Origin: Anaerolineae bacterium
GTDB taxonomy: Bacteria > Chloroflexota > Anaerolineae > JAKLPW01
Length of the DNA: 56,196 nucleotides
Direction: 5' to 3'
Assembly: GCA_022013675.1 (NCBI GenBank)
Contig: JAKLPW010000276.1
Location: 1-56,196, forward strand
Shown here: piece by piece, positions 707 through 56,196 of the stretch
How the letters are laid out: each line of letters begins with the position of its first letter
Position numbering within the stretch: the stretch's first letter is position 1
Translations under genes and position numbers: made by a program
Notes under the pieces: generated by a model
The model's database searches: none
Told to the model about the DNA's origin: nothing
What the model saw: only the letters and a program-made list of their open reading frames with translations

Positions 707-1510
707 ATGTTCACGGGAAGGGAAGAGTTGATACTACTGGACGAACTAGATCTGGACACCGGTGAGGCAAGGGATACCATTGTTCGGTTCATACAGGAGG
801 AGTTTGGGAAAGCCGGATTCTCAAGAGCGGTCCTCGGCCTGTCTGGGGGCATAGACTCTGCTCTCGCCTGCTACCTGGCTGTCGAGGCGCTGGGGCCAGA
901 GAACGTGCGGGCACTCCTGATGCCATACGGTTCCGGTAACCCAGGCGGCGAGGCCGACGCTTGGTTGGTTATCGGCAAGCTGAGAATACCATGGGTGAAG
1001 ATTGACATCACACCGATGGTTGATCCCCTCGTGCGTTTATATCCCGAAATGAACGCTCGGCGCAAGGGAAACATCATGGCCCGCGCGCGCATGATTGTGT
1101 TGTATGATCAGTCAGAGGAGTTTCGTGGGCTTGTGGTCGGTACGAGCAACAAGACGGAGATCCTTCTGGGTTACTTCACCCTTTGGGCCGATTCGGCGGC
1201 GGCCATCAAACCGCTCGGAGATTTGTATAAGTGTCAGGTGCGTCAGCTCGCGAGAATTGTGGGTGTGCCAGAGCGTATTGTGCGCAAGGCACCATCGGCA
1301 GACCTGTGGGAGGGACAGACTGACGAGGGCGAGTTGGGGTTTAGCTACGATGTGGCTGATCAGGTGCTGTATCTGTTTCTGGAGGAGGAAAAGAGCGAAG
1401 AAGAGATCGTGGAACAAGGCTTCCCCCAAGGATTGGTGCGGCACGTACTGCAGCGCATGAGGGCAACTGCGTTCAAGCGGGGGCCAATTCCGACGCCGCG
1501 CTTGCGGTGA
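707..1510 (+). CDS. nadE: NH3-dependent NAD+ synthetase
   Basis: Catalyses the last step of NAD biosynthesis: ATP-dependent amidation of nicotinate adenine dinucleotide, in the cytoplasm. The ATP pyrophosphatase P-loop LGLSGGIDSA is at residues 43-52 and the family motif GTSNKTE at 145-151. At 267 residues with no N-terminal nitrilase domain, it should use ammonia rather than glutamine. The usual 'YGD' after the NKTE strand reads 'LWAD' here (about 159-162), a mild departure from the consensus; the following PLGDLYK is normal. The ATG at 707 follows the upstream mutase stop by 8 bases, with only a weak SD. The next 170 bases hold no gene except the tRNA remnant. Confidence 0.93.
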   Translation: MFTGREELILLDELDLDTGEARDTIVRFIQEEFGKAGFSRAVLGLSGGIDSALACYLAVEALGPENVRALLMPYGSGNPGGEADAWLVIGKLRIPWVKIDITPMVDPLVRLYPEMNARRKGNIMARARMIVLYDQSEEFRGLVVGTSNKTEILLGYFTLWADSAAAIKPLGDLYKCQVRQLARIVGVPERIVRKAPSADLWEGQTDEGELGFSYDVADQVLYLFLEEEKSEEEIVEQGFPQGLVRHVLQRMRATAFKRGPIPTPRLR

Positions 1511-1519
1511 GTTTCAGGT

Positions 1520-1575
1520 GAGAGGATTTGAACCTCCGACCTCACGGACTCGAACCGCGCGCGCTAGCTGGTCTG
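1520..1575 (-). pseudogene. Decayed partial copy of tRNA-Pro
   Basis: This stretch matches the intact tRNA-Pro at 2513-2586, same strand, at 44 of 46 aligned positions before a 1-base indel. It covers the T arm, variable loop, anticodon arm and part of the D loop. The acceptor stem is gone: the 3' flank CACCTGA has no partner upstream. The anticodon loop has drifted from TTCGGGT to TTCGAGT. The offset between the copies is exactly 1000 bases and the hicBA pair lies between them. This is the layout left when an element inserts at the 3' half of a tRNA gene, but no integrase remains, so the origin is inferred. Confidence 0.7.
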
Positions 1576-1685
1576 AACGGAGAACGCTTATCTATTCCCC
1601 TGGAAACTATCTGCGTACTGCGGTTCATTGCGGTGTTCAAAGTGAAGCCCACCGGTGAGTTGCGTCCACCGGGGATTCTGTCATG

Positions 1686-1952
1686 CTAAGCCCTGCGCTG
1701 TTTTCCCTTTGTCTTGACTTTTGCCCAGATCAGAAAGTCGTCGTAATCAACGTTGGCCAGTCTCAGGATGGAATCGAAGGTACCCTTGGGGATTTCCGGT
1801 TCCCCCATCTTCACGACAGTCACATCGTGGCCACCATCGGGGCGCTCTCTGCTGAGAGACATATGGCTACCCGTCTTTCGGGCGATTTCAAAACCACCCC
1901 GCTGAAGGGCTGCAATTATCTGATCACTCGAGAAGAGGCGTCGCTTAGTCAT
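1686..1952 (-). CDS. hicA: HicA-type mRNA interferase toxin
   Basis: An 88-residue HicA/YcfA protein with the small double-stranded-RNA-binding-like fold. Residues 8-34 (SSDQIIAALQRGGFEIARKTGSHMSLS) contain the family core, and His30 in the 'GSH' motif is the expected catalytic residue for translation-independent mRNA cleavage. I place the start at the ATG at 1952, because it overlaps the hicB stop (ATGA, 1949-1952) and gives the normal family length; a start at 2006 would add 18 unrelated residues. The C-terminus is longer and more basic than in many HicA proteins. It is translationally coupled to hicB, which should neutralise it. Confidence 0.85.
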   Translation of the reverse strand: MTKRRLFSSDQIIAALQRGGFEIARKTGSHMSLSRERPDGGHDVTVVKMGEPEIPKGTFDSILRLANVDYDDFLIWAKVKTKGKQRRA

Positions 1953-2245
1953 GCCCAGGCAGGAACGGGGAAGACCGCAGAATGAATGATGGCGTTGGGG
2001 GGACACGTGACCTTTTGGTCGGCAGACTCATTTGCGCGGTGAACTGCGATTCCCCTGTCCTTGAGAACCTGCTCACGTTCGCCTAAGTCCTCAAGGGTAT
2101 TCAGATAGACCAAGGTTGCCTCTTTGACGTTTGCAACCGCTTCCTCTTCACTGCGGCCAAAGCTTGCCGTTCCCAATTCCTGACACCTTGATATGTAGTG
2201 ATCTCCTTCGCGCGTGACCTCAAAGGTTACGATTATGTATTGCAC
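1949..2245 (-). CDS. hicB: HicB-type antitoxin
   Basis: A 98-residue HicB-like protein with the partly degraded RNase H fold: VQYIIVTFEVTREGDHYISR followed by CQELGTASFGRSEEEAVANV (the usual 'G..t.G.t.eEA..n..ea' pattern). The GTG start at 2243-2245 has GGGAGG 9-10 bases upstream; an ORF open to 2341 has no SD. The protein binds and inhibits HicA. I see no obvious C-terminal helix-turn-helix or ribbon-helix-helix domain, so autoregulation through DNA binding is uncertain. The order is antitoxin first, with a four-base overlap. Confidence 0.82.
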   Translation of the reverse strand: MQYIIVTFEVTREGDHYISRCQELGTASFGRSEEEAVANVKEATLVYLNTLEDLGEREQVLKDRGIAVHRANESADQKVTCPPNAIIHSAVFPVPAWA

Positions 2246-2381
2246 CGAGAACTGCCTCCCGCTTCCCGGCAATATCCATGTCCGGATATGTGCCCCGAAG
2301 CATTCATTCCGGATCGCGCTGTCTCGTCCCGCGCAATCCATATGGGCAGTCCCAACCCCTGCCCATGTGCTTCATGCATAT

Positions 2382-2408
2382 ATTATATCACACCTTGTCA
2401 AATGTCAC
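2382..2408 (-). promoter_or_regulatory. Putative hicBA promoter (extended -10)
   Basis: On the minus strand a perfect TATAAT (2382-2387) is preceded directly by TGA, giving an extended -10. GTGACA lies 15 bases further upstream (2403-2408) as a poor, closely spaced -35. This leaves a leader of about 130 nt before hicB. The remaining bases of the 2246-2512 gap show nothing I recognise. Confidence 0.4.
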
Positions 2409-2507
2409 GACTGCAGCCGCAACCCTGTAATTCGAAATTTAAAAGTGAACCAACCGAGGATCGCCATATCCGACCTGGATGGTAGATAGGCATTACCCGG
2501 TTGACCC

Positions 2508-2586
<79 letters not shown>

Positions 2587-2695
2587 ATGTCTGCTATTAT
2601 AGGCCAATTCGCTTGCTCTGCCAAATGCCAGCAGCCCGCGATTGCGTGGGAGGTGATTGATGCTTTGATCTGGGTGTGAGGGTAATTGCAGGAAC

Positions 2696-2714
2696 GCTGG
2701 GTCACGGACCCAGC
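2696..2714. other. Short perfect hairpin upstream of the DUF1848 promoter
   Basis: GCTGGGTC and GACCCAGC form an 8-bp perfect stem around a 3-base loop (ACG). No T tract follows on either strand, so it is not a standard terminator. It lies 34 bases upstream of the -35 box at 2748 and could be a protein-binding dyad or a leftover terminator. Confidence 0.35.
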
Positions 2715-2747
2715 TTGAGCAGTTGTGAGGCTGTTGGGACTGGCGAA

Positions 2748-2776
2748 TTGCACATGATCAGAAGAAGGGCTATACT
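2748..2776 (+). promoter_or_regulatory. Sigma-A promoter of the DUF1848 gene
   Basis: TTGCAC (2748-2753), a 17-base spacer, then TATACT (2771-2776). Transcription would start near 2783, giving a leader of about 33 nt that contains the AGGAGGT ribosome site of the gene at 2816. Confidence 0.7.
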
Positions 2777-2815
2777 AATCGGTGTGGTATTATCAGGTTT
2801 GCAGGAGGTTCCGCT

Positions 2816-3661
2816 TTGCCCCTGACCTTCCGTCTTGAGGACTACCCGCGCTACCTCGAAAGAGTTGGCGAAGCCACATACCTGGATGTGACACGACGTG
2901 CTGATCCGGCGCGCATTCAGAAGGTGTGGAACAACTTACTGGCTGTGGTGACTGTCTTTGGCGCCCCTTGGATCGTGCAGATATGGACCAAGGACCCAAT
3001 GGGCGTGTTGCGAAGAGGAGAGGGATTGCTTCGGAGGTTGCTGGACAGAGGGACCACCATCACGGCTCAGGTTACAGTAACGGGACTAGGGGGTACAGAG
3101 TGGGAACCCAGGGCGCCATCGGAGCCCTTTCATGGGGTATCGGCCCTGGCGGAGATAATTGGCGGACCGGAGCATGTCACCTGGCGCTACGACCCCATCA
3201 TACCTACTGTGCATAGTCTCGATCGCTTTCGAAATCTAGCTGAGGAGGCCGCCGGATTGGGTATCAGTCGTGGTGTGATCAACTTCATCGCCCAGCCTGG
3301 GCAGTACAAGCGGGTAGATGCTAGGTTGGCTGGCCCTTTGCCAGATTGGAACAAGGGCTTATCGTGGTATGATCACGCTTGGAAAGTGCAGACAGCACAG
3401 GAGATAGTAGCCGTAGCGAACGAGCTAGGCATCCGGATCGCTTGCTGTGCCGAGTCAGCGCAACTTTTGGGAGATGTCAAGAACCTGCGTCCGGCTGCCT
3501 GTGGAGACTATCACTGGTTCGCGGCATTGTCCGGGCGTGACCCGGGGCGGGTACCTTTCTCCGGGAGCCGTCTAAACTGCGGGTGTGCACTGTACTTTGA
3601 CGTAGGGACGTACGGGCAGTGGAAGCGATGTCACGGATGTCTCTATTGCTACGCTGGTTAG
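2816..3661 (+). CDS. DUF1848 family protein with C-terminal Fe-S-type cysteine motif
   Basis: The 281-residue protein matches DUF1848, a family of unknown activity. Recognisable blocks are 'QIWTKDP' near residue 57, 'TVTGLGGTEWEP' near 90, 'WRYDPI' near 124, and a C-terminal cluster LNCGCALYFD...YGQWKRCHGCLYCYAG. The last 30 residues hold five to six cysteines (CxC ... CxxCxxC), which look like an iron-sulfur ligand set. Some annotation sources describe relatives as radical-SAM-like or spore-photoproduct-lyase-like; I cannot confirm that. The TTG start has AGGAGGT six bases upstream. The gene is monocistronic, with its own promoter, and converges on the PfkB kinase (4 bases between stops). 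Confidence 0.8.
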   Translation: MPLTFRLEDYPRYLERVGEATYLDVTRRADPARIQKVWNNLLAVVTVFGAPWIVQIWTKDPMGVLRRGEGLLRRLLDRGTTITAQVTVTGLGGTEWEPRAPSEPFHGVSALAEIIGGPEHVTWRYDPIIPTVHSLDRFRNLAEEAAGLGISRGVINFIAQPGQYKRVDARLAGPLPDWNKGLSWYDHAWKVQTAQEIVAVANELGIRIACCAESAQLLGDVKNLRPAACGDYHWFAALSGRDPGRVPFSGSRLNCGCALYFDVGTYGQWKRCHGCLYCYAG

Positions 3662-3665
3662 GATG

Positions 3666-4511
3666 CTACGATCGGCGTACGAGTCCTTGAGCCATACGAT
3701 TCTCTGCCTGGGTGCGAGTGGGGATACTGGACAGGCCGCGGGCCTCCACGCTATACGACGCGACGGCGTTGGCGAAGCGAGCTGCTGCGTAGGGATCGCT
3801 GCCCTCTGATAGTGCAATGAGATAGGCCGAGGCAAAAACATCACCCGCGCCGGTCGGGTCCGTTTCCTCTGCGTAATAGGCTGGCAGACGACGAACGCCT
3901 TGCGGGGCGTAGACCACGGCTCCACGCCAGCCATCCGTCACCACTGCTAGTTTGGCCATCTCCAAGTAACTCTGCAGAAGAGATAGGTCACCACCTACGT
4001 CCTCTTCGCTGAGGATCAGGACATCGGCACGAGCCAGGATGTGGGGGGCACTGGTCCAGACTGTGTGTCTTACCCGACCGGAAGCATCCCAACTGCGCAT
4101 CCATCCCTGAGGCGTGACGCCTATCAGTGCCTGAGGGAAGAGGTCTACCAGATTCTCTCCTACCTCCATAGCTATTGGCCCTAGGTGAACCAATGGTGCA
4201 CTGTACCACTTCTCTGGTACATGCTCAGGTCTCAACGGAGGGGCCACGGATTGGATATATTGTTCTCGTGTTCCATTGGTGTATATATTCTCAAAGGTCG
4301 TCGTATCTTCTGCTGGCCAACATATTAGCTCGATGCCATCGAACACGGATCCCATCTCCATATCCTCTGCCACGCTGGTAATGACGCCGACGCGCAGTCC
4401 CAGGTTTCGCGCCGTTAACGCAGCATAGGTCACAGTTCCGCCCGGTATTATGGTGCCATCATGCTGTATGTCTCGGGTTATATGGCCGATCACGATGTAG
4501 TCAGGCAGCAT
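3666..4511 (-). CDS. PfkB-family carbohydrate kinase
   Basis: A ribokinase-fold sugar or nucleoside kinase of about 281 residues. The N-terminal strand is LPDYIVIGHITRDI, followed by 'GGTVTYAALTARNLG', the substrate-lid region. The PfkB signature 2, DPTGAGDVFASAYL, holds the anion hole and catalytic Asp. It is shorter than typical ribokinase (about 300 residues), and its substrate cannot be named from sequence. I prefer the ATG at 4511, which has GGAGA about 9 bases upstream, over the ATG at 4538, which has no SD. It is transcribed alone from a strong promoter at 4619-4647, divergently from the amidase gene. Confidence 0.82.
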   Translation of the reverse strand: MLPDYIVIGHITRDIQHDGTIIPGGTVTYAALTARNLGLRVGVITSVAEDMEMGSVFDGIELICWPAEDTTTFENIYTNGTREQYIQSVAPPLRPEHVPEKWYSAPLVHLGPIAMEVGENLVDLFPQALIGVTPQGWMRSWDASGRVRHTVWTSAPHILARADVLILSEEDVGGDLSLLQSYLEMAKLAVVTDGWRGAVVYAPQGVRRLPAYYAEETDPTGAGDVFASAYLIALSEGSDPYAAARFANAVASYSVEARGLSSIPTRTQAENRMAQGLVRRS

Positions 4512-4618
4512 AGGCGTTGCTCTCCGTGTTCTTTCCATTGCCGGCTAGGATGATTGTGATGTGAGATCTCGTAACTTTCCGCACTAGCTACTTGCTTTGC
4601 AGCGCAGAGACCAGCGCG

Positions 4619-4647
4619 ATTATACCCTTCCTGTGTGGATTGGTCAA
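4619..4647 (-). promoter_or_regulatory. Sigma-A promoter of the PfkB kinase gene
   Basis: On the minus strand TTGACC (4642-4647), a 17-base spacer, and TATAAT (4619-4624). The predicted start is near 4612, about 100 nt before the ATG at 4511. Confidence 0.72.
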
Positions 4648-4681
4648 GCTCGTGGTTACCCTTAACATCCTTATGTCCCAG

Positions 4682-4710
4682 TTGACGCGAGTTGCTGTTC
4701 GGGTTATGAT
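4682..4710 (+). promoter_or_regulatory. Sigma-A promoter of the amidase gene
   Basis: TTGACG (4682-4687), 17 bases, TATGAT (4705-4710); predicted start near 4717, 23 nt before the amidase ATG. It is divergent from the kinase promoter 35 bases away. Confidence 0.65.
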
Positions 4711-4739
4711 ACAAATGATTACGAAGAAGAAGAGGCTAT

Positions 4740-5492
4740 ATGGCCCGGAAATCAAGAAAGAGACACAACAGGCGGCGGAGTGAGGCTGCTGAGAGAGCTC
4801 TAAGCATAGTGCGCAACCTGATGCTAACTTTGCTTATGGGTATCGTGATCCTGGCTGTAATCTCTGTGCGGACCGAGCCTTCTTCTCTCGGCCTGGGTGA
4901 GGAAGGTGAGTCGTGGCTTGACTTGATTGGCTCTCGCCCCTCAACACCGCGCATTGGGATCATCGCTGGGCACTGGCAGTTCGATTCCGGAGCCATCTGT
5001 CCAGACGGGCTGCAAGAAGTAGACATAAATCTTGGAATTGCCCGGCTGGTAGTAGATACTCTGAGAGAGAGGGGGTACTTGGCCGAAGTGCTGCCCGAGT
5101 ACTCACGCAAACTCAAAGGGTATCGAGCGGTGGCTCTCGTTTCGCTGCATGCTGATTCCTGCGTGCACCATGTCTCGGGGTTCAAGGTTGCTGCCCGGGA
5201 GGGGCGTTCAGCAGCGGAACAGGACCGTCGTCTGGTGGAGTGTCTGTATGAGGGATATGGTAAGGCTACCGGTCTTTCCCGGCATGATCAGAGTATTACG
5301 GTAGACATGACCAGGTACCATGCTTTTCGGAGCATCTCACCCAAGACGCCAGCGGCCATCATTGAGATGGGCTTCATGGGCAGCGATCGGGAGTTGTTGA
5401 CTCAGCGGCAAGATCTGGTGGTGCAGGGTATCGTTGACGGAATACTCCTATTTTTAGATACGGGCGAAGAGGAAGTCTCTCCTACGGAATAG
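4740..5492 (+). CDS. N-acetylmuramoyl-L-alanine amidase (Amidase_3), membrane-anchored
   Basis: A zinc-dependent peptidoglycan amidase of 250 residues that cuts the bond between N-acetylmuramic acid and the stem peptide. A basic N-terminus is followed by one transmembrane segment (about 24-43), so the catalytic domain should be outside the membrane. The Amidase_3 zinc and catalytic residues are all visible: His78 (IIAGHWQ), Glu93 (LQEVDINLG), His137 (SLHADS) and Glu209 (AAIIEMGFMG). No SH3 or LysM cell-wall-binding repeat is attached. The ATG follows AAGAGG. The amidohydrolase gene begins 28 bases downstream and may be cotranscribed. Confidence 0.85.
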   Translation: MARKSRKRHNRRRSEAAERALSIVRNLMLTLLMGIVILAVISVRTEPSSLGLGEEGESWLDLIGSRPSTPRIGIIAGHWQFDSGAICPDGLQEVDINLGIARLVVDTLRERGYLAEVLPEYSRKLKGYRAVALVSLHADSCVHHVSGFKVAAREGRSAAEQDRRLVECLYEGYGKATGLSRHDQSITVDMTRYHAFRSISPKTPAAIIEMGFMGSDRELLTQRQDLVVQGIVDGILLFLDTGEEEVSPTE

Positions 5493-25952: not shown

Positions 25953-26996
25953 CTACTGAGATCCTTTCATTCGAGGATCGAGGGCGTCTCGCAGTCCGTC
26001 GCCTAGGAAATTGAAGGCGAACATGGTAAGTGCCAGAGCAATGGCTGGGAAGAGCACCAGATGTGGGTAAGATCGCATGGCTCTCGACCCATCTGAAATC
26101 ATAGCGCCCCAACTAGGGGTTGGCGGGTCTACTCCTAGACCTATGAAGCTCAGGAAAACCTCAGTCGTGATGTATCCTGGGATATACAGCGTGACTGTCA
26201 CAATCAGAGGGCCAAGAATGTTGGGAAGTATGTGGCGCGTGATTACGCGCATGTCTCGGGCTCCGATCATGTGCGAGGCCTCGACGAACTCTTTTTCTTT
26301 AAGGGAGAGTATTTGTCCTCTGGTGAGGCGTGCTATCCCCATCCATGCAGTGATTCCGATGCCCATGAAAATGAAAAGCATGCCGCCCCCTTCCAAGCCC
26401 AGTAGACCGTCCACGAAGTGGTTTACCTGGTTGAAGGTGTAGGCAACCGAGCCTGGCTGCTGCGCACTGCCGAAGCTGCTCTTGAAGAAGGCCATGAGCA
26501 GGATGATGAGCAGCATCGTTGGAAAAGCATACATGATGTCGACGATGCGCATCATGGTATTATCTACCTTGCCTCCATAGTAACCGGAGATAGACCCATA
26601 GATCAGGCCGATAAACAGCGCTGTTAAGGCGCCAACGAACCCTACAGGCAATGAGACTCGTGCCCCGTAGACGATGCGGCTAAACAGGTCCCTACCCAGG
26701 AAATCGGCTCCCAGGAGGAACTTGTTTGAAATGGTGGCGTAGGCCTCGACGTTTCCAGGCAGGAGAGGCGCTAGCCAAGTTGGGATTGTGTAGTTCTCGA
26801 CGGAGTCGCCTTCAGCGTAGTGCATGGGAGTGATCTGAGGGGCAAATACCGCTGCCAATATGAGCACGATGATGATAACGCCACCCATAATGGCGGCCTT
26901 GTTTTTTATCAAGCGGCGCCAGGCGTCCAGCCAGAGGTTCGCTACTCGTTGTTCTCTCTGTAGCATACGCGCCTGAGCACGTTCTTGTATTGTCAT
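25953..26996 (-). CDS. Peptide-type ABC transporter permease (DppC/OppC family)
   Basis: Inner-membrane permease of 347 residues, one half of the translocation channel of a peptide or nickel-type ABC importer. A cytoplasmic N-terminus carries the OppC_N helix (about 36-58). Residues 120-340 form the five-helix transport domain. The EAA loop, where the ATPase docks, is visible as EFVEASHMIGARDMRVITRHILPNILGPLI, followed by FLSFIGLGVDPPTPSWG. A ~35-residue insert (about 170-205, FFKSSFGSAQQPG...) lies between helices. The start has AGGAGG six bases upstream. No binding protein or ATPase gene is in the window. Confidence 0.92.
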   Translation of the reverse strand: MTIQERAQARMLQREQRVANLWLDAWRRLIKNKAAIMGGVIIIVLILAAVFAPQITPMHYAEGDSVENYTIPTWLAPLLPGNVEAYATISNKFLLGADFLGRDLFSRIVYGARVSLPVGFVGALTALFIGLIYGSISGYYGGKVDNTMMRIVDIMYAFPTMLLIILLMAFFKSSFGSAQQPGSVAYTFNQVNHFVDGLLGLEGGGMLFIFMGIGITAWMGIARLTRGQILSLKEKEFVEASHMIGARDMRVITRHILPNILGPLIVTVTLYIPGYITTEVFLSFIGLGVDPPTPSWGAMISDGSRAMRSYPHLVLFPAIALALTMFAFNFLGDGLRDALDPRMKGSQ

Positions 26997-27040: not shown

Positions 27041-27988
27041 CTACGTGTACCGGATCCTGGGATCCAGGAAAGCATAAGTGATGTCCACTAGCAAGTTGGC
27101 TGCGACGAGGAAGACGGCATAGAGCAGGATGGCACCCATGACCACGGGATAGTCACGGTTCCCTATGCTGACGATGAAATATTTTCCTAGTCCTGGGATT
27201 GCAAAAATCTGTTCCACCACAAATGATCCCGTGGTAACGGCAGCGAATAGGGGCCCCAGAACGGTGGCTACGGGAATGAAGGCATTCTTCATGGCATGTT
27301 TGACCATGACAGCTCGTTCCGAGAGACCTTTGGCGCGCGCGGTGCGGATGTAGTCTTCGCGGATGACCTGCAACATTGAGGCGCGGGTCAGGCGAGCAAT
27401 AATGGCTGACGATGGGAGCCCTAATGCGATGGCGGGCATGATCACTTGGGAAGGCTTGCCCCAGCCTGCAACGGGAACCCATTGGAGAATCAATGCGAAT
27501 ATCCAGATCAGTAGGGGGCCCAGAACGATATTGGGTACGGATACCCCAAAGATGGCTAACCCCATTCCCAGGTAGTCATAGACGGTGTTTTGCTTGAGGG
27601 CGGCCAGTACTCCCAAAGGTACGCCTAGACCCACGGAGATAAGCAGTGCCCAAACCCCCAGATTTAAGGAAACTGGCAGGTGAGATGCGATGATGTCATT
27701 CACGGTTCGGCTGCGAGACGTGAACGAAGGGCCGAGCTGCCCTTGGAAGAGGCCACCGTACTCGCCGTTAGGTTTCCTGGTGACGCCTAGGTAGTCTGTA
27801 AACTGCTTCCAGAGGGGCTGATCGAGGCCGTAGTGCTTCTCCAGGTTGGCGATGATCTCGGCGGGAAGGGCCTTCTCTCGATCGAAGGGGCCACCCGGAA
27901 GAGCGTGTGCTAACGAGAAGGTCACCACAGCGATGAAGAAAAGTACCGGAATTGTCCAGAACAACCGTCTTGCGATGTAGCGTCCCAT
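27041..27988 (-). CDS. Peptide-type ABC transporter permease (DppB/OppB family)
   Basis: The partner channel subunit, 315 residues with six predicted helices. The family blocks are complete: ALPGGPFD near the N-terminus, RTVNDIIASHLPVSLNLG, LAIFGVSVPNIVLGPLL, and an intact EAA loop EDYIRTARAKGLSERAVMVKHAMKNAFIP, then FVVEQIFAIPGLGKYF. The ATG at 27988 has GGAGGT seven bases upstream. It is clearly paralogous to the last 300 residues of the gene just upstream (28054-30975), suggesting a local duplication. Confidence 0.93.
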   Translation of the reverse strand: MGRYIARRLFWTIPVLFFIAVVTFSLAHALPGGPFDREKALPAEIIANLEKHYGLDQPLWKQFTDYLGVTRKPNGEYGGLFQGQLGPSFTSRSRTVNDIIASHLPVSLNLGVWALLISVGLGVPLGVLAALKQNTVYDYLGMGLAIFGVSVPNIVLGPLLIWIFALILQWVPVAGWGKPSQVIMPAIALGLPSSAIIARLTRASMLQVIREDYIRTARAKGLSERAVMVKHAMKNAFIPVATVLGPLFAAVTTGSFVVEQIFAIPGLGKYFIVSIGNRDYPVVMGAILLYAVFLVAANLLVDITYAFLDPRIRYT

Positions 27989-28025
27989 GTCTTGCACCTC
28001 CTGACAGGCTATTGAATACGCTTGA

Positions 28026-28034
28026 ATTATAGCA
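28026..28034 (-). promoter_or_regulatory. Possible internal promoter for the dppBC-like genes
   Basis: On the minus strand an extended -10, TGC-TATAAT (28026-28034), lies about 38 bases upstream of the dppB-like start. TTGATA is present 20 bases further upstream, too far for a good -35. The local sequence resembles the alaX promoter. If real, the permeases can be expressed without the fusion gene. Confidence 0.45.
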
Positions 28035-28053
28035 CTGACCTATCAACCGACTA

Positions 28054-30975
28054 TCAATGCGCTTGTGTTTTGGGCGCGGCCCGTGATATCCCTGGCTTCA
28101 GCAGGGCGAGAACGATCTCTGCCAGCAGGTCAACGGTTGCCAGGAGGATGGCGTAGAACAAGAGCGTATTGACGAGCACGGGGTAATCCTTGGCCTGGAT
28201 GGTGCTGACGAGATACTGACCCATGCCAGGGATGTCGAAGAGCTGCTCGACGACGAGAGAACTTGCCATCATGGCGGAGGACATGGAGCGTGCAAGGGGC
28301 AACAGAGAGAGCAGGGACATGCGAAGCGTCCGCCAGAGCAGGAGCCTGTGGGCGTGCTGCCGCTGGGGCATTGCCATGTCCGTGAAGAGCCTGCATTGCA
28401 GCTTCACCATGCTATCGCGCACCGACTGAGCGATCAAAGCGGCAAACCCCAGGCCCAGGGCAGCGCTCGGCAGTATCAGGTGACGCAGCTCTCCCCATCC
28501 AGTGGGGGGTAGCCAGGCAGTAGTGAAGGAGAGAGACCATAGTAACAGTGGCCCCAAGACAATGACAGGGATGGCGAGACCGAACGTTGCCATTCCTGTG
28601 AACAAATAGTCCCAGAAGCTGTCGGTCTTGTGTGCTGCAAGCGCGCCGCAAGAGACCCCCAATCCAATAGCGAATAGAGTGGCTGCTAGACCAAGCCCTA
28701 GAGATGCGGGGAGGTGCTGGCATAGGATGTCGTTGACGGTGCGTTCTGGGGGTATGTATGAGGGGCCAAGATCAAAGTGAAAGACGACGTTGCGCAAGTA
28801 GACCAAATATTGTTCCGCTGGTGAACTGCCTACTCTATAGTACTTCTCGATGGCCCCGATCGTGACCGACGACAGGTGCTTTAGGGAATCGAAGGGGCCA
28901 CCGGGGATGATACGTAGTGTGAAGAAAGCTACAAGAGAAAGAAAAATGATGGAGGCGGTCAGTCGTAGAATTCCTCGAACCCCTCTAGCTACCAGTTCAC
29001 GTTGTCGCTGGTAGCGTCGAAATTGCGTTCTCAGGTGGAAACTCGCTCGTTTCAGGCGCTCTCGATAATTGGCCGGTTGCACTTTGGCTACTCGAAGACG
29101 TAACTGTTCTTCGTGGGTGACACTGATCTCTTCCATGGCCACTTGACGAACTTCCTTGTGTGCGAAGCGAAACTTGCCGGCCATCGTTTCTTGTAGGAAT
29201 CTCAACCGAAGCAGTGCGTCGAGTGCACGAAGGGCTTCAGTCTGGTCGAGTCCGCTAGCACGCTGCACAGTCACGAAGTCGCATCGTTCTCCGGCAACAG
29301 CGGCTGTTAGCAGGAACTCCCGAGTGAAGGGATCAAGTCGTCTCAAGCGTGTCTGGAATAGCTCTCGTATGCTGTTGGGGATTCGCTTTTCGGTGGGTGC
29401 AGTGGATGGGCGGAGAAAGAGCGAACGGGTCAATTCGATGGTGAAGAGAGGATTACCTTCGCTTCTTCTGTGAATGCGTCTTTCCAGAACGTGTCCGCCG
29501 ATACCTTTGGTGATGTGTCGGACAAGCTGACCTGTTTGATCGGCATTCAGACGAGAGAGGGTCAAGTGCTTGGCTTGGCTCTTCACTTCCAGGTTGTGCA
29601 GCACGGCTTCCGCAGGAGGAGACAGTTCCTCGGCACGATAGGCCACTATGAAAAGAATGCGCTCGTCTCTGAGTGAGTGGACCAGGTATGCTAGCAGATC
29701 GCTGCTAGCCGCATCTGACCACTGACAGTCGTCCAGAAACAGAGTCGCCGGCCTTCGTTGAGTGATTTCTCTCAAGATAGCAGTCAGAAGCGGCGCTAGC
29801 TGCCGCAGTCTGTTTTCGGATCCCTCTGTCATCCGAGCAACAGATTTGCCCCAGCCTGATAGGTATTTCCGTAGATCCATCCAGCGATAACCACTGTCAG
29901 ACGGCGAGATGCTTTCCCACAAGGACAGAACTGCACGCAGAATAGGGATGAATGCCTGGTAGGGCAGGGGAGACTCCATGGGATAGCAGTGGCCAGCAAG
30001 AACAGCAATGCGTCTTGTAGTCTGGCGGGCCAGGAATTCCTCAATCAGACGTGTCTTGCCGATGCCTGCTTCCCCTTCCACCAGCAGTACTCTGGCCTGA
30101 CCTCTAATAACAGCGTCCAGGGAGTTGTTCAGGAGATTCAACTCTAGATCTCGATCAACCAGGGGTAGACGTTCCTCGCCGAGGAGAAAGGAAGTCTTCC
30201 ACTCGGGCAACTGCTCCTGTTTCAGGATACTCTCGCCCATCAAAAGAGCGTGGATCTCCTGTGTTTCGTCGCTAGGAGCGGTGCCAAGCTCAAGTTCCAA
30301 TACCTCACGGCACTTCTCGTAGGTACGGAGGGCGGCAGCGCGATTGCCTTCACGGTGATACAGGCGCATTAATGTGCAGTATGCACTTTCCTGAAGAGGA
30401 TCGGCTCGCAGAGCATCAAGGGAGTACTTGATGGCTTGCCCATAGTTGTGACGCTGTTGATGGTAGTATGCCAGTTGCTCCAAGAGCGAGATGTAGGCAA
30501 GATGCAAGGCTTCGCGTCTGAATCGGGTCCATACTGAGAAAGCCTCGTTCTCCTTGAGAATGAAGCCATCCAAAAAGCCTTCTCGGTATAGTTCAATGAC
30601 CCGTACCGCTCTGTTGATGGAGAGAGCGTCGGGGGCGGTGGATATCCCTTCCAGAGCATGCTCGAACTCCTCAACGTCTACCCAATAGTCGCTGCTATCG
30701 CTGAGCTGAACCCATTCCCATGTAGCGATGATATGATTGCTACCGGGTAGTGCTTGACGGAGTTTGTAGAGTGCATCGTTAAGGCTGCGGCGAGCGTGGC
30801 GTTCGTCACTATCTTCCCAGAACATGGTGGCTAGTTTCCCGCGAGATATGGGAGCCTGAGCTTCCAATGCCACGTAGAAGAGTAGCGCCATGGCTTTCTG
30901 GGACGTCAGCGCGATAGGCTGGCCGGCGTACTCGATTCGTGGAGATCCTAGGAGATAGAGCTTCAGGGTTGGCAT
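28054..30975 (-). CDS. Fusion: BTAD/STAND-ATPase transcriptional regulator joined to a DppB-like permease domain
   Basis: One unbroken 973-codon frame. Residues 1-95 are the OmpR-like winged helix of SARP/BTAD regulators (MPTLKLYLLGSPRIEYAGQP, then DERHARRSLNDALYKLR). Residues ~97-245 are the BTAD helical repeats (LDALRADPLQESAYCTLMRLY). About 265-635 is an AAA/STAND ATPase with Walker A VEGEAGIGKTR and Walker B TLFLDDCQWSD. A basic linker (635-665) leads, instead of TPR repeats, into a DppB-like membrane domain (665-960): RIIPGGPFD, RTVNDILCQHLP, FGLAIPVIVLGPLLLW, SSLVVEQLFDIPGMGQYL. Its EAA loop has decayed to QCRLFTDMAMPQRQHAHRLL (860-879). The ATG at 30975 has GAGGA six bases upstream. 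It probably leads the dppBC operon. I infer a membrane-tethered regulator. Confidence 0.85.
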   Translation of the reverse strand: MPTLKLYLLGSPRIEYAGQPIALTSQKAMALLFYVALEAQAPISRGKLATMFWEDSDERHARRSLNDALYKLRQALPGSNHIIATWEWVQLSDSSDYWVDVEEFEHALEGISTAPDALSINRAVRVIELYREGFLDGFILKENEAFSVWTRFRREALHLAYISLLEQLAYYHQQRHNYGQAIKYSLDALRADPLQESAYCTLMRLYHREGNRAAALRTYEKCREVLELELGTAPSDETQEIHALLMGESILKQEQLPEWKTSFLLGEERLPLVDRDLELNLLNNSLDAVIRGQARVLLVEGEAGIGKTRLIEEFLARQTTRRIAVLAGHCYPMESPLPYQAFIPILRAVLSLWESISPSDSGYRWMDLRKYLSGWGKSVARMTEGSENRLRQLAPLLTAILREITQRRPATLFLDDCQWSDAASSDLLAYLVHSLRDERILFIVAYRAEELSPPAEAVLHNLEVKSQAKHLTLSRLNADQTGQLVRHITKGIGGHVLERRIHRRSEGNPLFTIELTRSLFLRPSTAPTEKRIPNSIRELFQTRLRRLDPFTREFLLTAAVAGERCDFVTVQRASGLDQTEALRALDALLRLRFLQETMAGKFRFAHKEVRQVAMEEISVTHEEQLRLRVAKVQPANYRERLKRASFHLRTQFRRYQRQRELVARGVRGILRLTASIIFLSLVAFFTLRIIPGGPFDSLKHLSSVTIGAIEKYYRVGSSPAEQYLVYLRNVVFHFDLGPSYIPPERTVNDILCQHLPASLGLGLAATLFAIGLGVSCGALAAHKTDSFWDYLFTGMATFGLAIPVIVLGPLLLWSLSFTTAWLPPTGWGELRHLILPSAALGLGFAALIAQSVRDSMVKLQCRLFTDMAMPQRQHAHRLLLWRTLRMSLLSLLPLARSMSSAMMASSLVVEQLFDIPGMGQYLVSTIQAKDYPVLVNTLLFYAILLATVDLLAEIVLALLKPGISRAAPKTQAH

Positions 30976-31018: not shown

Positions 31019-31027
31019 ATTATACCA
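31019..31027 (-). promoter_or_regulatory. Extended -10 promoter of the fusion-regulator gene
   Basis: On the minus strand TGG-TATAAT (31019-31027) gives an extended -10; no good -35 is seen 17 bases upstream. The predicted start is near 31012, about 37 nt before the ATG at 30975. The absence of a -35 suggests the promoter needs an activator, possibly the encoded protein itself. Confidence 0.5.
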
Positions 31028-31231: not shown

Positions 31232-31528
31232 ATGGACAACAGGTCTACAGAGGGGATGGATTGCCCGAACTGTGGCGTTTACAACCCTGCTGGCCGGGCT
31301 GTATGCTGGCGATGCGACCGGGAATTGCCGAAGCCCAAAGAACAGAAGCGACGGAAACCATTCTGGAGTGGACAGTCTTGGGTGTATATATTGATGGCTG
31401 TCTTGATTCTCTTCTCCCTGCTGCAGCTTTGCGGCTTGCCCAGTGTACCGGGTGGGGATGAATCTGGATCCCTGCGTTTCTTTTTCTGTGAAGCAGATAG
31501 TTTGGTGAACCTGCTGCTGGTTATGTGA
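31232..31528 (+). CDS. Small zinc-ribbon protein with one transmembrane helix
   Basis: A 98-residue protein of unknown role. Residues 10-29 hold a zinc ribbon with two CxxC pairs (DCPNCGVYNPAGRAVCWRCD). A basic stretch (PKPKEQKRRKPFW) leads to one hydrophobic helix (about 46-65, YILMAVLILFSLLQLCGL) and a short tail. Such ribbon-plus-helix proteins are common in Chloroflexota, but no function is established. The ATG has GGAGGT three bases upstream and its own promoter. It is divergent from the fusion-regulator gene. Confidence 0.75.
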   Translation: MDNRSTEGMDCPNCGVYNPAGRAVCWRCDRELPKPKEQKRRKPFWSGQSWVYILMAVLILFSLLQLCGLPSVPGGDESGSLRFFFCEADSLVNLLLVM

Positions 31529-42779: not shown

Positions 42780-42960
42780 GCGTTGCCCTGCGGTGCGCGT
42801 GATTGTCCATATCAGTTTTGAGCCAACACAGGTTTTGCGGGAGTCTGTCTCAGAAGGGGCGTCGTAATCTCTGCGGAGAGAAGACATAACCGACGGCAGA
42901 CACCCATATCTGCGAAAGCAGGTTCAAAACACATGGCACACGACACTGCGGGGAACGCGC
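42780..42960 (+). ncRNA. ssrS: 6S-like regulatory RNA candidate
   Basis: A gene-free stretch of about 180 nt with its own promoter folds into a rod. The closing stem pairs 42780-42795 with 42944-42958 (GCGTT, one bulged G, CCCTGCGGTG; 15 bp with two G-U pairs). Next is an internal bubble (42796-42814 opposite 42931-42943), then a 10-bp stem (GTTTTGAGCC 42815-42824 with GGTTCAAAAC 42921-42930), then a branched terminal part with a TCTCT/AGAGA hairpin. Length, closing stem, central bubble and terminal stem fit 6S RNA, which mimics an open promoter and binds RNA polymerase. I recognise the shape, not a specific sequence match. Confidence 0.55.
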
Positions 42961-53958: not shown

Positions 53959-56196
53959 CTATGGGACTACCTTCACTGGAATCCGGGTTTCTGACTCTTC
54001 TACGGTCACCGTGACGAAGAGATCATTCGGCTGAGGCAGAGTCGATTCATGTAGACTGACTCCAATGCGAATCTGTTTGCCTGGCTTCACGGTACAGGCG
54101 TTGCGCTGGAGAGTCAGTTCCGAACTACTTGATCTGAGTTGAGCACGCGCCACCGCCTGACCCTCATTCCTCAAGGTCAACTGACCTACGGCATCTTCTG
54201 TTTCGTTTGTCCGTGTCAGTAACAGAGGAGATGGACGGATCTCCAACCGGGGCTCAAGCACAATACCAAAGCAGAGGTCCATCACAGCCTGACCGCCATT
54301 AGTATCAACAACAATAGCATCCTTCTCCGAGACAGATCCCTTGGGCAACCCTTTGGGCCATGCTTTCACTCTAACAGATTGGGACCTTCCCGTGGGGCAA
54401 TCGAACGAGGAAGGCTCAATGGCGAGCCACTCTACCCTTGACTGTATTTGTCCAGATAGAGTGCCCAGCCCGTGGTTGAAGATAGTAAAAGAGCCTTCGA
54501 TCTCAGCATGATTGATACTCGTACCCAAGTCAAGCACGGAAACGTCCAGAGCAAGTCGCGGAGAGGCAATCGTGATCGCGATCGGAACGTCTTCGCGCCC
54601 TCCGTTGCTCGCTATGTGTAGCGAGCCCTCAGCCATTTCCGTCTCGCTTGGTAAAGCTAGTGTGTAAGCAGTAAGTCTCACCTCACTAGTTTTCCCGGTT
54701 TCACTTAGGCCTTCTGTGGGCTCAATCTCGACCCAAAGGCTGTCAGTCTTGATGTCCCAACTCAGGATACCGGTACCTTCGTTCCGTATCAGAAGGGATC
54801 TGCTGACCGGCTCAGGCATACCAACGATACCAAAGTCCAGGACGGAGGGGGTGAGCGCCAGGAGGGGCTTCAGAATGTCCAGTCTAGTGCCTATATCCGC
54901 TGTACCGTCGTTAGATGCAATGCGGACCGCTTCCGGTAGAGTCAAGCTCAAGCCACGAGAAAAAGCAGCAGTATCTGCCGTGACAGTCAACTGCACAGAT
55001 TGTCCTGGGGCACACACGAAGTACTCCGGTGAGATCGTCAACCACTCCAGCAGACTCTCAGCGTGGGCTTCTAGAGGTGCTGACCCCACATTCGAGATGG
55101 GCAAGAGAAGTTGAGAAACTTGGCCTAGAGGGACATCTTGGAAGTGCAATGACTCCTTGGATACTGATAACTGGGGAGCAAGGATCTCCGTTTGCGCAGA
55201 TACCATCCGTTCCCCAGCGTTGGTCTCGATCGACAGGGCTGTCAATTCGCGTATGGTTCCTTGACTCAGTTCGGTCGTGTCGATCACGATTGTATGCGAG
55301 ACATGCTCGCCAGGGTTGCAGAGTATCGTATCGGGCTCAACACACAGCCAGGGAATCTGAGTACGGACAACTCCTCGCAGTATACCGTCGCCTACGTTAC
55401 TGAGATTGATGGTTTTTTCTGCGGCCTGGCCTCGTAGGAGGGGACCGAAGTCTACGTGAGTGGTTTCCAGCTTGAGGGATGGCTGCACACGCCGGACGCG
55501 CACTTCGATGCGCTCTTGTCCGACATCGCTGTCCAAGAGCAAGGCCCTGGGCTCGACTAGTTTGCCTTTGGGCAATTTCCCAGTCAGCAGCGCAAGACTG
55601 AGCTGCAATGTTTGATGAGGTGGACAGCGGAATGCTTCCTTCGATACTCTGAGCCAGGAGACGCGGCTACGCAGAGTTCCTTTCAACAAACTATCGCCGT
55701 CGTTGAATATGGTAACCTGGCGAAGGAGTTCTCCGTCTCCCTGGACACGACCGAAGTCCAACACCTTCTCTTTCACCCTCAGAGTAGGGCCTTGTACCAC
55801 TGCTGCGCGGGCACCTATCCATTGCCGCCGACCGGAGTTGGTCTCCACGGAAAGAGCCTGAGGCTCATTAGTTGTCTCGGGGGGAAGGCTCTTTGCCAGC
55901 ACGCTGACTACAAGTTTGGAAGCCTGCTGAGGCTTACAGCGGAAAGTGCCTTTGGACACAGTTATCCAAGGCACGTGGCTCATGAGGCGTCCAACTAGCT
56001 GTCTTTTTCCCGTGTTACGTACTGTTACCACTACCTTTCGAAGTTCATGCGGGTCCATTTCGCCCAGGTCAAGGTAACGCGGACTGACTCGCAACTGAGG
56101 TGGTTCGGCGTGGCGTGAAACGACCCGGGTTGGAGCTTCCTCTCTGGGTTCGTGGCTGCGTGGTTTTTCTGCACGCTGCAATTTCTGGACCGGGAC
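53959..56196 (-). CDS. Protein of seven Ig-like (ASH/BACON-type) repeats, N-terminus outside the window
   Basis: The frame stays open to the right edge (codons read VPVQK before the TTG at 56181), so the start lies outside. The visible 745 residues are seven tandem repeats of about 103 residues. Each follows P.L.V....LDFG.V..., a '(N/R)xGxxxLxGxLxSxxxWLxVxxxxFxCxPG' block and a final '...NGG...' strand. This is the beta-sandwich pattern of ASH/BACON-type domains that mediate protein or carbohydrate binding. In Chloroflexota, such arrays often follow a kinase or a zinc-ribbon domain; that part cannot be seen. No signal peptide is visible. The last repeat has lost the WL and Cys positions. Confidence 0.72.
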   Translation of the reverse strand, partial: VPVQKLQRAEKPRSHEPREEAPTRVVSRHAEPPQLRVSPRYLDLGEMDPHELRKVVVTVRNTGKRQLVGRLMSHVPWITVSKGTFRCKPQQASKLVVSVLAKSLPPETTNEPQALSVETNSGRRQWIGARAAVVQGPTLRVKEKVLDFGRVQGDGELLRQVTIFNDGDSLLKGTLRSRVSWLRVSKEAFRCPPHQTLQLSLALLTGKLPKGKLVEPRALLLDSDVGQERIEVRVRRVQPSLKLETTHVDFGPLLRGQAAEKTINLSNVGDGILRGVVRTQIPWLCVEPDTILCNPGEHVSHTIVIDTTELSQGTIRELTALSIETNAGERMVSAQTEILAPQLSVSKESLHFQDVPLGQVSQLLLPISNVGSAPLEAHAESLLEWLTISPEYFVCAPGQSVQLTVTADTAAFSRGLSLTLPEAVRIASNDGTADIGTRLDILKPLLALTPSVLDFGIVGMPEPVSRSLLIRNEGTGILSWDIKTDSLWVEIEPTEGLSETGKTSEVRLTAYTLALPSETEMAEGSLHIASNGGREDVPIAITIASPRLALDVSVLDLGTSINHAEIEGSFTIFNHGLGTLSGQIQSRVEWLAIEPSSFDCPTGRSQSVRVKAWPKGLPKGSVSEKDAIVVDTNGGQAVMDLCFGIVLEPRLEIRPSPLLLTRTNETEDAVGQLTLRNEGQAVARAQLRSSSSELTLQRNACTVKPGKQIRIGVSLHESTLPQPNDLFVTVTVEESETRIPVKVVP

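Follow-up and report, generated by a model that had tools for sequence, protein, structure and literature searches.

An Intact Gene Joining a BTAD-STAND Regulator to a Probable ABC Pseudo-Permease Lies Beside dppBC in an Anaerolineae Genome

Why would a DNA-binding regulator end in the membrane domain of an importer, and might it control the importer genes that lie next to it? The question is raised by a gene at 28054-30975 (minus strand) of a 56,196-nucleotide stretch of DNA from an Anaerolineae bacterium, hereafter the window, which is the entire contig C212 of a metagenome-assembled genome (MAG) of 3.94 Mb in 526 contigs (93% complete, 5.8% contamination). The original prediction had read this gene as one uninterrupted frame in which a BTAD/STAND-ATPase regulator is followed by a six-helix DppB-like domain in place of its usual TPR array, and had proposed a peptide sensor controlling its own transporter operon. 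Our analysis bears out the fusion and the replacement of the TPR array, and indicates that the membrane half is probably a pseudo-permease. With moderate confidence, we read the product as a membrane-tethered SARP-type STAND activator that would use the pseudo-permease as its sensor and would control the adjacent dppBC genes. More tentatively, as a possibility that falls somewhat short of probable, we propose an ABC-derived transceptor based on a SARP-STAND regulator: a coupling-dead permease of an ABC importer would serve as the sensor of a one-component transcription factor, which in turn would control the genes of the related live permease pair.

Domain architecture of the fusion gene

The frame is unbroken over 973 aa (1031 aa from stop to stop), and its ATG at 30975 is preceded by a good Shine-Dalgarno sequence, GGAGAGGAAAGAA-ATG. 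A Pfam search found all three of the expected domains above their cut-offs, namely BTAD (residues 99-243), AAA_16 (272-443), and BPD_transp_1 (773-964, 59 bits), and NCBIfam OppB/NikB-type models match residues 667-966 over close to their full length. The gene and the parts of its regulator half are as follows:

28054..30975, minus strand: fusion gene, SARP/BTAD-STAND regulator plus probable OppB/DppB-type pseudo-permease (frame, Shine-Dalgarno sequence, Pfam/NCBIfam, AlphaFold, Foldseek)
31019..31027, minus strand: predicted fusion-gene promoter, extended -10 TGGTATAAT, about 45 bp upstream of the ATG (sequence inspection)
30682..30975, minus strand: winged-helix DNA-binding domain, residues 1-98, recognition helix at about 58-75 (Trans_reg_C below cut-off; Foldseek to the AfsR SARP structures 8k60/8hvr; conserved columns kept)
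30247..30681, minus strand: BTAD, residues 99-243 (PF03704, 67 bits)
29647..30162, minus strand: STAND ATPase (AAA_16), residues 272-443 (PF13191, 87 bits)
29080..29388, minus strand: STAND winged-helix/arm region, residues 530-632, which TPRs would normally follow (homology to TPR-bearing regulators stops near residue 650; AlphaFold helices)

The regulator half has the layout of a large SARP of the AfsR type, with an N-terminal winged helix (its Pfam match lying below cut-off), then the BTAD, and then a NOD/STAND ATPase with Walker A (GEAGIGKT, 301-308) and Walker B (LFLDD, 412-416) motifs. Of the 56 highly conserved columns of the family it retains 48, those of Walker A/B and GNP among them, and Foldseek matched it to the AfsR SARP domain, EmbR, and STAND proteins. 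The C-terminal TPR sensor of a large SARP is missing, as no Pfam TPR match was found beyond residue 250 and the permease domain stands there instead. AlphaFold modeled the full-length protein with a mean pLDDT of 83.5 and a pTM of 0.48, so that the relative placement of the two halves is undefined. There is no in-frame ATG, GTG, or TTG between residues 632 and 724, which makes a separate permease translated from an internal start unlikely; this candidate was rejected. On sequence grounds, the regulator and permease halves are joined in one real, intact frame.

Loss of the ATPase-coupling loop

28081..28995, minus strand: OppB/DppB-type six-helix permease domain, residues 661-965 (37% identity to the adjacent DppB; NCBIfam; TM-score to OppB)
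28303..28395, minus strand: degenerate EAA/coupling loop, residues 861-891 (1/31 identical to the adjacent DppB; lowest internal pLDDT block)

The permease half has the BPD_transp_1 fold over the full length expected of an OppB/DppB importer permease. Modeled alone, it reached a pLDDT of 83 and a pTM of 0.79, with TM-scores of 0.85/0.89 to E. coli OppB (8z21) and 0.77-0.89 across the E. coli OppB/DppB structures (8z21, 8z1v), although this agreement is partly built in because the alignment behind the predicted fold contains DppBs. What the half has lost is the EAA loop that contacts the ATPase. Outside this segment 110 of 277 residues are identical to the adjacent DppB, against the single residue within it. 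Among columns invariant in the DppB orthologue group, the permease half keeps 1 of 21 in the EAA segment and 60 of 118 elsewhere (Fisher 6e-5). By comparison, 14-18 of those 21 are retained in four other DppB-like proteins, of which three are encoded in this genome and one comes from the same phylum. The structure of E. coli DppABCDF places DppB residues D235, T239, K243, H254, and N258 in contact with DppD (PMC12136057). The adjacent DppB has D, T, K, H, and N at these positions with the same spacing as in E. coli, and the fusion has L863, M867, Q871, R882, and M886, so that all five are changed. Furthermore, the conserved C-terminal DPR motif reads KPG in the fusion. Compensating frameshifts were rejected as the cause of the loss, because the other frames carry no EAA motif. 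Given that the coupling loop is lost, the permease half should not drive transport, and it is probably a pseudo-permease rather than an active transporter. The DppB-like domain of the original prediction thus stands as a fold, and probably not as a coupled permease.

The dppBC genes and a candidate operator

28026..28057, minus strand: predicted SARP-type operator and dppB promoter, TTGATAG-TCGG-TTGATAG-GTCAGTGC-TATAAT (direct repeats DR1 28057-28051 and DR2 28046-28040; extended -10 28031-28026)
27041..27988, minus strand: dppB, OppB-type permease with intact EAA loop (60-78% identical to same-class orthologues; Shine-Dalgarno AGGAGG 28002-27997)
25953..26996, minus strand: dppC, OppC-type permease (BPD_transp_1 and OppC_N; mostly 69-75% identical to orthologues)

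Between the fusion stop codon and dppB are 56 bp that hold TTGATAG-N4-TTGATAG-N8-TATAAT, followed by AGGAGG and the ATG at 27988. This ATG is probably the true start of dppB, since the alternative GTG at 27997 overlaps the ribosome-binding site of the gene. SARP targets are described as direct repeats at 11-bp spacing whose 3' copy stands 8 bp from the -10 element (PMC10936776, PMC4393881). The repeat in the dppB promoter fits this geometry exactly and is the sole such site in the window. We scanned the 3.94-Mb assembly with TTGATAN5TTGATAN6TGNTATAAT (a 20-base pattern, up to 3 mismatches) and obtained two matches, one immediately behind each of the two BTAD genes that the assembly contains, the fusion being one of them; the reversed pattern gave 0 matches in the same scan. 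As the pattern was defined on the window site after the second site had already been seen in a smaller scan, the genome-wide count adds only the absence of a third site. The second site, with 2 mismatches (TTGACAC-N4-TTGATAC-N8-TATACT; contig C79, L078, 7908-7939, minus strand), lies just past the terminator of the other BTAD gene, which encodes a BTAD-STAND-TPR regulator. Around 40 BTAD genes of relatives, four sites with SARP geometry but different half-sites were found where 0.85 were expected, and the excess is limited to the 11-bp spacing. Three of them lie 16-34 nt after the regulator stop codon (L138, L163, and L166) and one lies 40 nt upstream (L148). Taken together, the geometry and the exclusive association with BTAD genes lend support to, but do not prove, an action of the fusion protein on the dppB promoter through the predicted operator, and with it control of dppBC. 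An Rfam search near the operon found no regulatory RNA.

Beyond these sites, a one-mismatch repeat on contig C163 was set aside, as it apparently lies within a coding region. The C79 site also precedes a short gene, along with genes that encode large beta-helix and CBM96/PPC proteins.

The rest of the transporter lies elsewhere in the genome. Same-class genomes carry orthologues to which the window DppB and DppC are mostly 70-78% identical, and there the order is SBP1-dppB-dppC-SBP2-dppD-dppF (SBP, binding protein), with a LysM gene and an ECF sigma factor preceding the operon where checked (L067). In this genome, contig C138 carries LysM-sigma-SBP1-SBP2-dppD-dppF, with a gap of 156 bp between SBP1 and SBP2 and no dppBC, and the window DppB is the only close DppB found in the assembly. 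Since the C138 operon keeps the ancestral order minus dppBC, the simplest reading of the gene orders is that dppBC moved out of the ancestral operon to directly behind the fusion gene. No operator-like site was found before the binding-protein/ATPase operon on C138, so dppBC is the only predicted target; of the proposed control over the protein's own transporter operon, the part concerning dppBC is retained and the part concerning the binding-protein and ATPase genes is not. The peptide ligand was not borne out either. No substrate evidence was found, the transporter family spans oligopeptide, nickel, and sugar carriers, and a 'peptide' substrate is therefore unsupported. A glycosidase-like gene follows dppF in two relatives.

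Two further observations concern these contigs. The SBP1-SBP2 gap on C138 (L103, 3102-3257, between the genes at 3258-4907 and 1431-3101) contains a strong hairpin of the terminator kind, together with a palindromic CAGCTATCAGC...GCTGATAGCTG repeat that resembles a small mobile or REP-like element and was not found in the window. The ends of C138 and C26 (L103 1-412 and L104 7884-8819) each carry a dppF start and may be overlapping ends or two copies.

Constraint on the permease half and alternative explanations

We rank as the main rival, unlikely though it is, an origin in which a duplicated dppB joined a TPR-less regulator that still controls dppBC, the permease half being a mere anchor or in decay and sensing nothing. 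The lost coupling loop and the alteration of several otherwise invariant residues would fit such a remnant, as would its very long branch. In the phylogeny the permease half clusters with same-class DppB orthologues (support 97/93), but its branch measures 3.43 changes per site where most of the others measure 0.1-0.3, and at such a length its position in the tree is unsure. Its periplasmic scoop region is partly degraded too, which leaves a retained contact with the binding protein uncertain. Nor is there an orthologue to show that the domain is conserved. No homologue spanning the junction was found in 60 relatives, in 396 genomes of the class and 400 of the phylum, in the collections of genome and viral contigs, or in plasmids, where the genome-contig scan reached close relatives only and the class and phylum searches scored only 6 candidates per genome. 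The fusion is therefore a singleton from one MAG, and the original prediction had named the lack of any same-architecture homologue as grounds for rejecting it; the nearest genomes compared belong merely to the same class, however, so this absence is weak evidence. One candidate (G586, L109), whose frame of 957 aa matched a permease, turned out to be an SBP and a permease flanking a stop codon. The long branch, the degraded scoop, and the singleton status, together with the retrospective search pattern and the lack of a site before the C138 operon, weigh against a sensor that controls dppBC.

Several features nevertheless speak against this rival. Divergence between the permease half and dppB is 0.53/0.33/0.68 by codon position, second positions being conserved over third. 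Neutral drift to this divergence would be expected to leave approximately 9 stops (minimum 2 in 300 simulations), but none is observed, nor is any frameshift. Moreover, it is chiefly the coupling loop that has been lost, and the predicted fold remains close to OppB, allowing for the part of that agreement which is built in. This pattern suggests that the permease domain is under constraint and not in plain decay.

A second alternative, which we regard as very unlikely, is that the fused permease still transports, pairing with DppC instead of DppB and reporting flux in the manner of CbrA, which both transports and signals (PMC7096432). The overall OppB fold, the approximately 40% identity outside the EAA loop, and the adjacent dppC would suit this arrangement, but all five DppD-contact positions are changed, and the adjoining dppB is a complete gene of its own whose loop is intact.

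The MAG origin, with its many contigs and measurable contamination, also raises the prospect of a mis-join that accidentally fused a BTAD gene to a dppB-like gene, in line with the absence of the fusion from relatives. Third-position GC does shift at the junction, from 0.57 to 0.66, but the neighboring dppB likewise has 0.66. The order of genes on the two sides is not kept in relatives, where priA and the rluB-like gene are not neighbors, so synteny could not test for a chimera. The junction DNA has no second copy in the assembly, its longest exact match elsewhere being 17 bp, and it contains no repeat. An assembly chimera is unlikely, and to us the least probable of the readings, given that the in-frame join falls exactly at domain boundaries, with the regulator half stopping where the TPRs of relatives begin and a full-length permease running from its N-terminal end to its C-terminus, and that a random mis-join would not explain the loss of a coupling loop present in every free-standing DppB examined.

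Proposed mechanism and comparison with known systems

In the membrane-tethered activator that we favor, the TPR sensor of an AfsR-like STAND activator would have been replaced by an OppB/DppB-derived pseudo-permease that kept the six-helix fold. Inserted in the membrane, the pseudo-permease would tether the regulator there and might respond to the transporter, either by pairing with DppC/DppB or by meeting the loaded binding protein. Because the permease is covalently attached, a change on pairing or on contact with the binding protein could reach the ATPase, and a change so relayed would allow the dimer formed by the BTAD/winged-helix part to bind the dppB promoter at its 11-bp direct repeat, bringing RNA polymerase to dppBC. 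We infer membrane insertion, DNA binding, activation of dppBC, the partner, and the whole signaling step, including ligand sensing, from the features described above.

STAND regulators sense via exchangeable C-terminal modules. CadC/ToxR-type one-component regulators have an OmpR-type winged helix fixed to the membrane, as proposed for the fusion, but unlike it they have a single membrane helix and a periplasmic domain, with no STAND ATPase and no permease fold. MalT, a STAND regulator too, is soluble and binds DNA through a LuxR-type domain at its C-terminus. The E. coli importer MalFGK2, when idle, keeps MalT at the membrane through a non-covalent hold by the ATPase MalK, and lets it go once transport occurs (PMC10427625). 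Both systems would tie a STAND activator to an ABC importer and the membrane, although the permease of the fusion is covalently attached and without ATPase contact. The transporter-coupled histidine kinases CbrA and CrbS (SLC5-STAC; PMC7096432, PMC9100948) likewise have a transporter-type domain as input in a single chain, but combine a secondary symporter with a histidine kinase, where the fusion combines an ABC permease with a DNA-binding regulator. AfsR and other large SARPs (SARP-NOD-TPR; PMC10936776) share with the fusion the winged helix, BTAD, and STAND/NOD in identical order, and their operators have the geometry of the one predicted here, two direct repeats at 11-bp spacing of which the 3' copy stands 8 bp from the -10; the fusion differs in having a six-helix ABC permease for the TPR, in being presumably membrane-bound, and in lying beside a transporter and not antibiotic genes. 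With E. coli OppB/DppB (8z21, 8z1v; PMC12136057) it shares the full-length permease fold, but it lacks the ATPase-coupling loop and the C-terminal DPR and is fused to a regulator. Lacking both the TPRs of the one family and the coupling loop of the other, the fusion is a plain member of neither.

Large SARPs, STAND proteins, the OppB fold, and SLC5-coupled sensor kinases are all known; a BTAD-STAND regulator fused to an ABC permease was found neither in the other genomes nor in the literature searched. If the proposal is right, a cell would read the state of its transporter via a transporter relic wired to a transcription factor. The covalent, coupling-dead permease would be a hard-wired version of the MalT-importer logic, and it would become directly testable which step of the conformational cycle of an importer a transcription factor can read. 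In addition, 11-bp direct repeats right after BTAD genes may offer a way to predict the targets of uncharacterized BTAD-STAND regulators in the phylum.

Other features of the window

31233-31528, plus strand: short divergent frame with a zinc-ribbon-like CxxC...CxxC and then a hydrophobic stretch; the longer frames covering it have no Pfam match
42782-42958, plus strand: 6S RNA (Rfam, 60.8 bits)
53959-56181, minus strand: protein with several HYDIN/ASH/DUF1573-type Ig-like domains, reaching near the contig end
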